From Methanoculleus sp. (lineage in GTDB: Archaea; Halobacteriota; Methanomicrobia; Methanomicrobiales; Methanoculleaceae), in contig NZ_JAJGBK010000023.1 in assembly GCF_020696975.1 (NCBI RefSeq), forward strand, positions 1-55,552: DNA of 55,552 nt, in the 5' to 3' direction. The translations under genes and the position numbers were made by a program. Positions 24,010-29,284 of the stretch are shown here, piece by piece. Numbering within the stretch: the stretch's first letter is position 1; each line of letters begins with the position of its first letter. Below the pieces are notes generated by a model. It saw only the letters and a list, made by a program, of their open reading frames with translations. It searched no databases and was not told the DNA's origin.

Positions 24010-25095
24010 CTACCTGGTTATCCCGAGACCGCCGAAGACGATCATGTCCCGGATGCCGCGGCCGCCGAGCAGGTGCATCGCCCGTTCGATCAGGAAGTCT
24101 GATCTGAGAACCCGGTCGGCCATCCTCTTTGTTCTCGCGGCGGTGAGGAGTTCCCCGCCCACCATCGAGCGCCAATTCCGCTCGTAGGCGTCGAGGGGTT
24201 CGCCGTCGAGCAGGTGGCGTGCCACGGCAAGCCCGGCGAGCCTCCCGCAGATCATCGCGGTCGCTATCCCCCCGCCGTTGGAGGCGACGACATGGCCCGC
24301 GGCGTCGCCGACGGCGATGACGTTCTCGCGGACGGTCTTCGGAATCGGTCCGGAGACGGGGACGAACCCGGCCTGGACATCCCGGGCGGCAAAGCCGTTT
24401 CGCGCAAGGAACGCCCGGAGAAGGACGGGAACCGGTGCTGCCGGCCTCTGCACCCCGAGCCCGACGTTCGCGCATCCCCGCTTCGGGAAGACCCATGCGT
24501 ATCCACCCGGGGCAACGCTGCTCCCGAAGATGAGCCGCAGACGGTCGCCGAACTCCCCGTCGACCCGGCAGGTGATAGCGGGGGCGAGCACGGCGTTCCG
24601 CTCCATCCCGGCGGAGCGGGCGGTCGGGGAGAGCGGGCCGTCTGCGGCGACAACAACACGGGCCTCGACCTCACCCCGATTGGTACTGACCCGGCGGCCT
24701 TCACGGCCGAGGAACTTAGTATCCAGCGAGAGGACGGTCCCCGCACGGACGGCCGCGTCCGCCAGGTGCCGGTCGAACGCGTCCCGGTTGACGGTGCAGC
24801 CGGGAAGATCGAACTCGTACTCCCGGCCCTTCGGGGAGACGGCGACGGCACCCCGGATTCTCCTCTGAACGAGTTCCGGGCCGATGGGAAGGAGCTCGTC
24901 GAGTCCCCGGGCGCCGGGGAGCGCTTCTGCGAGGATCTCGGGGGATGCGTTGAACTCCCCGCAGCAGACAGGAAGGCCGATCTCCTTTCTTTTATCAATC
25001 ATGAGGACGTCGAGCCCCGCCTCCGCCGCGTAGCGTGCGGTGGTGCTGCCGGCGGGGCCTGCACCGACGACGATCACGTCACATCGAGAGAGCAT
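24010..25095 (-). CDS. Geranylgeranyl reductase family flavoprotein
   Basis: 361 aa. N-terminal FAD motif CDVIVVGAGPAGSTTARYAAE (residues 5-25), the family segment PVCCGEF (near 43), ADGPLSPTARSAG (near 150) and the second flavin motif VGDAAGHVVASNGGGI (near 270). It reduces the isoprenoid double bonds of archaeal ether lipids or of polyprenyl substrates. Archaea often have several paralogues, so the substrate (digeranylgeranylglycerophospholipid, or another prenyl chain) is not certain. The start is supported by a TATA box 26 nt upstream of a near-leaderless transcript start. The ATP-cone gene follows on the same strand. Confidence 0.88.
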   Translation of the reverse strand: MLSRCDVIVVGAGPAGSTTARYAAEAGLDVLMIDKRKEIGLPVCCGEFNASPEILAEALPGARGLDELLPIGPELVQRRIRGAVAVSPKGREYEFDLPGCTVNRDAFDRHLADAAVRAGTVLSLDTKFLGREGRRVSTNRGEVEARVVVAADGPLSPTARSAGMERNAVLAPAITCRVDGEFGDRLRLIFGSSVAPGGYAWVFPKRGCANVGLGVQRPAAPVPVLLRAFLARNGFAARDVQAGFVPVSGPIPKTVRENVIAVGDAAGHVVASNGGGIATAMICGRLAGLAVARHLLDGEPLDAYERNWRSMVGGELLTAARTKRMADRVLRSDFLIERAMHLLGGRGIRDMIVFGGLGITR

Positions 25096-26668: not shown

Positions 26669-26842
26669 GCTCGGGTTTGGGCGGAAAGGCGCTCAAAAGG
26701 CAGATCTACCGGAGCAAATGGGTGAATCCCGGAGATGCCGCCGATAACCAGGAGAGGGTTTGAGAAGCTCTGAATATGAGAAACGCATGCCTGGAGGAAT
26801 AGAAAGGGTGATATCGTTGACCCGACCCCTTATTGTAAGAGT

Positions 26843-27670
26843 ATGAACGAGACGCCCCCTCTGGAGATCTACAACAAGTTTCACGACGACGTTCAGGCGA
26901 TCTTCCGGTCGAGACTGTTGACGCAGGTACTGCTTGCCCTCGGGGACGGGACAAAACCCCTCTCGGCCCTTCGTGACGTCACGGGGAGTTCGTCACAGGC
27001 GCTCATCCCGAAGATCCGGCACCTCGAGGCACTGCATTATGTCGAGTCAGTACGAGGCGACTATGTGCTCACCCCTATCGGCAGGCTCGTCGAATCAGAG
27101 ATTGAGCGAGTGGTAACGCTTATGGGGGTGTTCCAGCGCCACCGGGGGTTCTGGGTCGAGCACGAGATCGAGGGCATACCACCCGAGTTTCTGTGCGCGA
27201 TAGATCGCCTGTATCGTGCAGAGGTGATAAGAAACATCGAAGAGGATGTTTTTGCAGTGTATGCATCATTTCAGGCAATAATCAGGAAAGCATCCTGGGT
27301 ACACGGTGTGACATCGATTATGAGCCCCATTCTTGCAGATGCGATTAAAGAGGCTGTTATGGAGGGCAAACCCGGAGAACTCGTCGTCTCCCAGGAACTC
27401 GCTCAAAAACTCGCCACCGAACCGTATAGTACCATGCTGGAATCCCTGAGCGGGTATGCAAACTTCAAGATATACGTCTCCCCCTCGCCGGTTCGCCTGG
27501 GGATGACGGTGACCGATGGATATCTTTCATTGGGCCTGTACAGACGCGACACGGGCAAGTACGACGCCGTTACGGATCTCATCGGCACCGATGCGGCGGC
27601 GGTCACCTGGGGTGAGAGGCTCTTCCTGCATTACAAAGCTGACTCCATATTGCTGGAGATGCCCCGGTAA
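26843..27670 (+). CDS. Winged-helix regulator with FilR1-type domain
   Basis: 275 aa. An N-terminal winged helix (about residues 20-85; LSALRDVTGSSSQALIPKIRHLEALHYVESV is the recognition part) is joined to a C-terminal domain ending in LIGTDAAAVTWGERLFLHYKADS, the hallmark of the FilR1 (formerly DUF1724) family of methanogen regulators. FilR1 is tied in Methanosaeta (Methanothrix) to control of methanogenesis genes; most relatives are uncharacterised. It is probably a DNA-binding dimer with a ligand-sensing C-terminal domain. It diverges from the MBL operon and precedes the UbiA-like gene, whose upstream region holds a dyad element. Whether it binds that element is inference. Confidence 0.85.
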   Translation: MNETPPLEIYNKFHDDVQAIFRSRLLTQVLLALGDGTKPLSALRDVTGSSSQALIPKIRHLEALHYVESVRGDYVLTPIGRLVESEIERVVTLMGVFQRHRGFWVEHEIEGIPPEFLCAIDRLYRAEVIRNIEEDVFAVYASFQAIIRKASWVHGVTSIMSPILADAIKEAVMEGKPGELVVSQELAQKLATEPYSTMLESLSGYANFKIYVSPSPVRLGMTVTDGYLSLGLYRRDTGKYDAVTDLIGTDAAAVTWGERLFLHYKADSILLEMPR

Positions 27671-27793: not shown

Positions 27794-27893
27794 AGTTGAC
27801 ACAATCGTCGCTATAGACCGGAGAGTAACGCGTATGCCAGGCCATACCTCACCAATCCTGCGGAACACTGCGTTTGAACGCCGGGATGCATCA

Positions 27894-27923
27894 GAGTGAT
27901 GAATTTTCATCGACGTAATAAAT
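27894..27923 (+). promoter_or_regulatory. Operator-like element, copy A (upstream of the UbiA-like gene)
   Basis: GAGTGATGAATTTTCATCGA opens a 30-nt element that matches copy B (28951-28980) at 23 of 30 positions. It contains the dyad GATGAA-TT-TTCATC. The adjoining TAATAAATATTC (27917-27928) is a TATA box about 25-30 nt before the ATG at 27951, so the mRNA should be leaderless and a bound regulator would sit just upstream of the box. Confidence 0.6.
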
Positions 27924-27950
27924 ATTCGCCGACCTCCAGAAAACCAATTC

Positions 27951-28862
27951 ATGTTCGGATTTGTCAATCGGGCCTACCTGTTTCAACCGGTCTACCAGAT
28001 CGCCGCCCATCTCATCGTTTACAGCTCCCTGTATACTGCTGCCATGATGGCGGCGATGGTGTACATCTCATGCCTGTTGCAGGGGCTCCCTTTCGACCTG
28101 GTTGCCACGGCAATACTGATGCTCGTCGTGTTTGCCGTCTACAACCTCAACCGCAAGACCGACGAGGACGAGGACGCCATAAATCACACAGAACGGTATA
28201 CATTCACGAAGAAATACGAATTTATCCTCTTCCGTTCTGCAATTTGTGCCTTCGTCGTTGCCTTCTGCCTCTCCACCCTTCAGGGGTTCGGCAGCCTTCT
28301 CATCACGACGATCCCCTTGGTCGCCGGGATCGTCTACAGCGTGCCGCTCTTCCCCGCCCGGTTTGGGTTTCGGCGACTGAAAGAGGTGCCTTTCATGAAA
28401 AGCCTGATCGTGGCGTTCTCCTGGACCATCCCCGCGACTATCCTCCCGATCTGCCACGCCGGCCTTCCTCCAGATCCCGCCACCGGCATCGTCGGTGTCT
28501 TCTTCCTTTTACAGACTTTCACGAATACAGTGGTTTACGATATGCGCGACCTTGAGGGGGATGCAGCGTCCGGGGTCAGGACGATCCCGACGATCCTCGG
28601 TTCTCGAAGGACGCTCCTTCTCCTTACAGGGATGAACATAAGCATCGGAGTCGCGCTAGTGCTCGCTGCCGGGCTCCTATTGGATTTCTGTGCAGCACTG
28701 CTGCTGGTTGCAGGCACTGTCTACACCCTGGGATACCTTCTGTTCTTCCAGCGGTTCGGGACAGAGAAACTCCTCTTCGAACTGTTTACTGACGGGGAGT
28801 TCATCCTGCTGGCCGTTGTTCTCTGCCTGCTCACCCTCACAATGCCGTATCTTGCGCTATAA
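27951..28862 (+). CDS. UbiA-family prenyltransferase-like membrane protein
   Basis: 303 aa with about eight or nine membrane helices. The first Asp motif appears as NRKTDEDED (near residues 66-74) and the second as DMRDLEGDAASGVRTIPTI (near 199-217), so both metal-diphosphate sites look usable. It differs clearly from the lipid enzyme at 4431. The substrate is unknown; candidates are a quinone-like, carotenoid, haem or lipid prenyl acceptor. The ATG at 27951 is nearly leaderless after the TATA at 27917. It follows the FilR1-type regulator and shares its upstream element with the small cysteine protein gene. Confidence 0.82.
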   Translation: MFGFVNRAYLFQPVYQIAAHLIVYSSLYTAAMMAAMVYISCLLQGLPFDLVATAILMLVVFAVYNLNRKTDEDEDAINHTERYTFTKKYEFILFRSAICAFVVAFCLSTLQGFGSLLITTIPLVAGIVYSVPLFPARFGFRRLKEVPFMKSLIVAFSWTIPATILPICHAGLPPDPATGIVGVFFLLQTFTNTVVYDMRDLEGDAASGVRTIPTILGSRRTLLLLTGMNISIGVALVLAAGLLLDFCAALLLVAGTVYTLGYLLFFQRFGTEKLLFELFTDGEFILLAVVLCLLTLTMPYLAL

Positions 28863-28950
28863 GCGTCGCTCTGCTGTCCCACCTTTATTTTCCGGGTTCC
28901 CGACGGCAATGCTGCTTCAAGTCACCCTCTAACTCCCCGGGGTTTAATCG

Positions 28951-28980
28951 GAGTGATAAACATTCACCGGCGCAACAAAT
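28951..28980 (+). promoter_or_regulatory. Operator-like element, copy B (upstream of the small cysteine protein)
   Basis: GAGTGATAAACATTCACCGG opens the second copy; the half-sites GTGA and TCAC form a dyad at the same place as in copy A. If the inner ATAAACATT is the TATA box, transcription would begin near 28985, favouring the ATG at 29015 over the one at 28979. Confidence 0.55.
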
Positions 28981-29014: not shown

Positions 29015-29284
29015 ATGAGTATACCAAATGATATCGATCCGCTGAAGAGTAAGACCGGCACCCAATATTACGGATCGCTGGATCCGGAGATGCCAGGTAA
29101 GGATGGTGGTTGCGTGTACGATCCCGCATCCGAAGAGTTAACGCAACAAAAAGGGGAGATACCGCGACGATTCGAATGCGCTTCATGCATGTATTACGAC
29201 CCCGGGCGGGTCTACTGCACCTACATCCATACACCCATACCGATCCTGTTTGTCTGTCCAAAAGACCTCGATAACCGCAGGTAG
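29015..29284 (+). CDS. Small cysteine-rich hypothetical protein
   Basis: 89 aa from this start, or 101 from the in-frame ATG at 28979. No named family is recognised. The C-terminal half has four Cys in CASCMYYDPGRVYC and, after TYIHTPIPILFV, CP, like a small zinc or iron-sulfur knuckle; an additional Cys lies in GGCVYDP. The middle (PEMPGKDGGCVYDPASEEL) is acidic and hydrophilic. It is soluble, with no signal peptide. Its upstream element matches the one before the UbiA-like gene, which suggests common control. Neither start has a good ribosome binding site; 29015 is chosen because 28979 overlaps the repeated element. Confidence 0.6.
   Translation: MSIPNDIDPLKSKTGTQYYGSLDPEMPGKDGGCVYDPASEELTQQKGEIPRRFECASCMYYDPGRVYCTYIHTPIPILFVCPKDLDNRR

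Follow-up and report, generated by a model that had tools for sequence, protein, structure and literature searches.

Phased dyads before two genes as candidate operators of a FilR1-type regulator in Methanoculleus

Introduction

Regulators of the FilR1/Msr type are common in methanogens. The closest described systems to the one reported here are FilR1 of Methanosaeta (Methanothrix) harundinacea and the PF08350 regulators (Msr) of Methanosarcina acetivorans, which combine a FilR1_middle domain (DUF1724) with an N-terminal ArsR-like winged helix-turn-helix (wHTH). FilR1 binds its own promoter and methanogenesis promoters, and up-regulates them (PMC3991700). According to work cited in PMC11218639, mtaCB1 is activated by MsrA/B, and MsrD/E act positively on mtaCB2 and negatively on mtaCB3; MsrC and MsrX also carry an HTH and DUF1724 (PMC11784639). 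No motif, palindrome or consensus is stated for the FilR1 operator in PMC3991700, and the literature searched yielded no defined binding sequence for a regulator of the FilR1/Msr type. A second point of comparison is the TrmB family (TrmBL1/Tgr, with its TGM operator, and TrmBL2), whose short palindromes adjoin the BRE/TATA: TrmBL1 sites upstream of BRE/TATA activate, while downstream ones repress (PMC4158304, PMC4706686).

Here we analyse a 55,552-nt stretch from a Methanoculleus sp. (NZ_JAJGBK010000023.1, from the 2.29-Mb assembly GCF_020696975.1), referred to below as the window. It encodes a regulator that resembles FilR1 and the Msr proteins in its domains; however, the M. harundinacea FilR1 is part of a two-component system, with a receiver (REC) domain phosphorylated by FilI, whereas the window regulator has no receiver. 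Its proposed targets also differ, being a ubiA-type gene and a gene for a small cysteine protein instead of methanogenesis operons. It is similar to the TrmB family in its fold, which best matches TrmBL2, and in a short palindrome adjoining the probable BRE/TATA, but it has no TrmB Pfam match, and its candidate operator, GATGAATnTTCATC, occurs in arrays of 19-bp period, unlike TATCAC-N5-GTGATA. Comparison of sequences makes it likely that two dyads in the window are operators of this adjacent one-component regulator, which probably activates both promoters. A candidate operator for the FilR1/Msr type is thus available together with its proposed partner, a precise spacing rule and a small set of targets.

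Results and Discussion

The regulator and its candidate target genes

The three genes at the locus are the following:

26843..27670, + strand: FilR1-type regulator, 275 aa, with an N-terminal wHTH and a FilR1_middle domain
27951..28862, + strand: ubiA-type prenyltransferase (PF01040), 303 aa, candidate target gene 1
29015..29284, + strand: small cysteine protein, 89 aa, with the pattern C-x2-C-YYDP-x3-YC-x12-CP, candidate target gene 2

The regulator matched FilR1_middle (PF08350) with 99.1 bits, against a cut-off of 27, and HVO_A0261_N with 29 bits, below the cut-off for that family. Pfam gave no Response_reg (receiver) match in the 275 residues, and the protein is thus a one-component regulator. 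Its structure model (pLDDT 91) has helices at residues 24-33, 40-47 and 51-63 and wing strands at 67-70 and 73-76, that is, a winged helix-turn-helix, with the recognition helix at about residues 51-63 (SQALIPKIRHLEA). The best fold match of the model was the archaeal TrmBL2; this similarity is one of fold only, the TrmB DNA-binding domain (PF01978) giving no match at E<=0.001.

The ubiA product scored 63.1 bits against PF01040 (cut-off 34.2), and its best NCBIfam matches were all far below their cut-offs. The small cysteine protein had no match in Pfam, NCBIfam or PDB, and its structure model was too poor to use (pLDDT 47); C58, C68 and C81 are invariant among 13 aligned relatives. We placed its start at 29015 rather than at 28979, where an ATG touches the end of the second element copy, because conservation begins at 29015 and the stretch between 28979 and 29015 has stops in relatives.

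Two copies of a phased element

An earlier note on this DNA had reported two similar 30-mers, one before each candidate target gene. We recovered both: positions 27894-27923 (copy A) and 28951-28980 (copy B) are identical at 23 of 30 positions, and each has the inverted-repeat core described, GATGAATTTTCATC (27898-27911) and GATAAACATTCACC (28955-28968). The limit of 30 bp, though, proved too short, as in each copy there is a further half-site 19 bp upstream. The element is better described as an array with a 19-bp period, TTCATC-n5-GATGAATnTTCATC-n5-AATRAAT(nTTCAYC), whose parts in the window are:

27887..27892, + strand: array A, half-site on the left, TGCATC (consensus TTCATC), lying 19 bp before the central TTCATC
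27898..27911, no strand assigned: array A, central dyad GATGAATTTTCATC
27917..27930, + strand: array A, third unit AATAAATATTCGCC, dyad-like, 19 bp downstream, over a TATA-like stretch
28944..28949, + strand: array B, left half-site TTAATC (consensus TTCATC)
28955..28968, no strand assigned: array B, central dyad GATAAACATTCACC (consensus GATGAATNTTCATC)
28974..28980, + strand: array B, TATA-like AACAAAT (AATAAAT in most relatives), spaced 5 bp from the dyad as in A

The TATA-like stretch of array A, AATAAAT at 27917-27923 (+), lies within the third unit, 34 bp before the ubiA ATG. Array B has no right-hand half-site. The register is fixed: in each promoter, 5 bp separate the end of the central dyad from the TATA-like AAYAAAT downstream. 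This stretch is probably the TATA box and, if so taken, the central dyad abuts the BRE at both promoters.

Chance resemblance of the two copies was ruled out by simulation and by conservation (see below). When the 30-mer of A was scored along both strands of the window, its score was 30 at its own site and 23 at B, with no other place exceeding 18; in 200 windows simulated with a first-order Markov model the top score was 21, and none reached 23. Across the whole assembly the exact motif GATRAAYNTTCAYC was found in four places: A, B, C7:159996 and C28:89229, the last two of which read as internal to coding sequence.

Conservation within Methanoculleus

Promoter alignments bore out the proposal that the element would be conserved before orthologues of both genes. 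The ubiA promoters share a consensus of a TTCATC-like half-site, 5 bp, GATGAATnTTCATC, 5 bp and AATAAATnTTCAYC, and the small-gene promoters one of TTCATC, 5 bp, GATGAATnTTCATC, 5 bp and AATAAATGTC. The central dyad is conserved in 16 of the 17 Methanoculleus ubiA promoters examined, with a single degenerate copy; AATAAAT is found in 16/17, and a TTCAYC-like right half in nearly all. Its position is also kept: the dyad starts 53 bp from the ubiA ATG in 15 of the 17 (the other two being one at 52 bp and the degenerate one). Before the small gene the dyad is present in nearly all Methanoculleus genomes that have the gene and, with one exception, starts 58-61 bp from the ATG. Across about 17 Methanoculleus species, mean information per column is 1.57 and 1.49 bits in the two elements, versus 0.56 and 0.45 in their upstream flanks.

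Nor is there a background of many unrelated copies. Genome-wide counts come from pattern searches, and the genomes of relatives are drafts; within that scope, searches of the assembly and of 22 Methanoculleus genomes ruled out many copies, and the combined dyad and TATA pattern gave 17 exact matches in the 22 genomes, all before ubiA or the small gene.

The FilR1 orthologue and the small gene co-occur in the same Methanoculleus genomes, with one exception where the regulator runs off the contig end. Four genomes keep the regulator, the small gene and the element (degenerate in G007), yet no ubiA orthologue was found in them. Promoter alignment revealed no element before the regulator gene in Methanoculleus, and autoregulation in this genus was therefore rejected; in Methanosarcina, Methanoperedens and one Methanospirillum bin the element does precede the regulator gene. 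The best reading of these comparisons is that Methanoculleus would have a two-promoter regulon, with ubiA and the small cysteine-protein gene as its clear targets. This would put a UbiA enzyme that is still uncharacterised under the same control as a small cysteine protein, and, the genus being cultured and the target list short, the operator, the direction of control and the ligand are open to direct test.

One Methanoculleus genome, G031, lacks the regulator cassette between intact flanking genes and retains one near-consensus dyad, before an exported-protein gene, so the motif may also serve another factor, or this copy may be a relic. Four Methanoculleus genomes, G031 among them, have a near-consensus dyad with a divergent exported-protein gene on one side and lipoprotein genes on the other. 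We do not claim this pair as a third target, since the gene is present at high identity in only a few genomes and the dyad also occurs in the cassette-less G031.

The element and the regulator across genera

Counts at three mismatches alone were set aside in favour of a gap-variable search, because AT-rich genomes without the regulator give single matches; a reversed-pattern control underestimates the background, since both GATGAA and TTCATC occur often as codon pairs. The search covered 199 genomes of the order: of 34 exact matches to TTCATC-N{0,25}-dyad, 31 had a gap of 5, one had a gap of 24 (5+19) and two were off-register, both of these in genomes without a FilR1 orthologue. All 19 genomes with gap-5 matches have a FilR1 orthologue (called at E<=1e-55), versus 69/199 overall (Fisher p=3e-10, with no correction for phylogeny).

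A scan of named genomes provided 79 loci with a FilR1 orthologue, from Methanoculleus, Methanolinea, Methanoregula, Methanospirillum, Methanosarcina, Methanohalophilus, Methanoperedens and others. The element was found at gap 5 in 57 of them (156 matches, versus 0-27 at each other gap from 0 to 12), and a UbiA gene lies within a few kb of FilR1 in 52. At the other 22 loci, notably in Methanohalophilus, no element was found at three or fewer mismatches in the stretch scanned. The motif LRxxTGS(S/T)SQALIPKIRxLE, which contains the recognition helix, is near-invariant in array-bearing relatives, down to ~38-45% identity. FilR1 paralogues that neighbour other UbiA genes have a different sequence here, and no array at their loci. 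A second FilR1-like/UbiA-like pair, convergent, occurs in the same genome as the window (C19:73500-74977) and in other Methanoculleus genomes; this pair lacks the array, and its recognition helix differs.

Upstream of the Methanosarcina and Methanoperedens regulator genes the array is found at a distance of some 60-280 bp, and an exported protein is often encoded divergently there; two such proteins are peptidases. In three Methanoregulaceae-type genomes, arrays of two to several units precede a ubiA-FilR1 operon and also many genes with exported N-termini, including a C39-like peptidase and a DUF6345 protein (Pfam), at ~190-210 bp before the ATG. The two-gene regulon that had been suggested thus fits Methanoculleus but understates the whole, the element spanning relatives in Methanomicrobiales and Methanosarcinales and standing at further promoters in other genera. 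In three Methanolinea-like genomes we also observed an array before a response-regulator gene, two of them with an AIM24-family gene on its other side.

Proposed mechanism and alternatives

The earlier note had left the choice between the regulator at 26843 and another factor. The fixed spacing, the co-occurrence and the conservation of the recognition helix, all of them comparisons of sequence, favour the adjacent FilR1-type regulator as the one that would control both genes. Its dimer most likely binds GATGAATnTTCATC through the N-terminal wHTH, and units exactly 19 bp apart would let two or more dimers load side by side. With the dyad 5 bp before AAYAAAT, bound regulator would sit against the BRE/TATA and, judging from this position and from the analogy to FilR1 and TrmBL1, would probably activate ubiA and the small gene by helping TBP/TFB. 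The C-terminal PLD-like domain is presumed to sense a ligand.

The main rival to activation is that the same regulator, on the same operator, is mainly a repressor, its dimers blocking TBP/TFB at or over the TATA-like stretch until released by a ligand. Many archaeal regulators repress (PMC4158304), the third unit of array A covers the ubiA AATAAAT, and in Methanolinea and Methanoregula relatives a third unit (AATGAATGTGAATC) likewise lies over the TATA-like stretch; at ubiA, repression at high occupancy is possible for this reason. We nevertheless regard a mainly repressive role as less likely, given that the small-gene promoter lacks the right-hand half-site and has sites only upstream of its TATA-like stretch, that the Methanoregulaceae-type arrays lie ~190-210 bp before the ATG, and that the characterised FilR1 up-regulates the promoters it binds (PMC3991700).

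The identity of the bound factor could be questioned too: an unlinked regulator, co-inherited with the cassette, would explain why the Methanoculleus FilR1 promoter has no element and why G031 keeps a dyad at another promoter. This is improbable, as the FilR1-type regulator is the constant partner of the array across two orders while the neighbours change, the array preceding ubiA in some genomes, separating ubiA from the regulator in others, and elsewhere preceding the regulator next to exported peptidases, and the recognition helix is near-invariant. It is still harder to credit that the dyads are a conserved core-promoter sequence or RNA feature of two tandem promoters, for instance after a local duplication. 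The AAYAAAT and its spacing are indeed common to both promoters, but arrays elsewhere lie some 200 bp away from genes, oriented either way and in runs of greater length; RNA cannot fold into a hairpin whose loop is 2 nt, there is no Rfam match at the locus, and the neighbouring regulator gene's promoter has no element.

As for the adjacent regulator itself, a wider and more tentative suggestion, which we hold as possible though somewhat doubtful, is that the FilR1-type regulator and its 19-bp-phased array form a widely conserved, undescribed system of Methanomicrobia. It would jointly control a UbiA prenyltransferase, exported proteins and peptidases, switching membrane isoprenoid chemistry and the cell surface together, and several of its Methanoregulaceae-type target mRNAs would have an undescribed conserved leader.

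Additional observations

At eight Methanoregulaceae-type loci, a conserved leader of ~150 nt, GGGTTCnCCTCA...GAACCC...GGCCCGAAGGCATGAG, was found behind the arrays. It has no match in Rfam; a covariation run, on a poor alignment, gave three pairs and no covariation. In the window, a FAD-dependent protein, geranylgeranyl reductase-like by eye, is encoded at 24010-25095, three genes from the UbiA gene, a possible link to isoprenoid lipids. Finally, a different conserved short palindrome, CTTATTGTAAG, lies at 26829-26839, just before the FilR1 start codon; its arms seem to co-vary in relatives (CTCTTACTTGTAAGAG, CCTTAACTGTTAAGG), and it may be a leader hairpin or an operator located where transcription starts.
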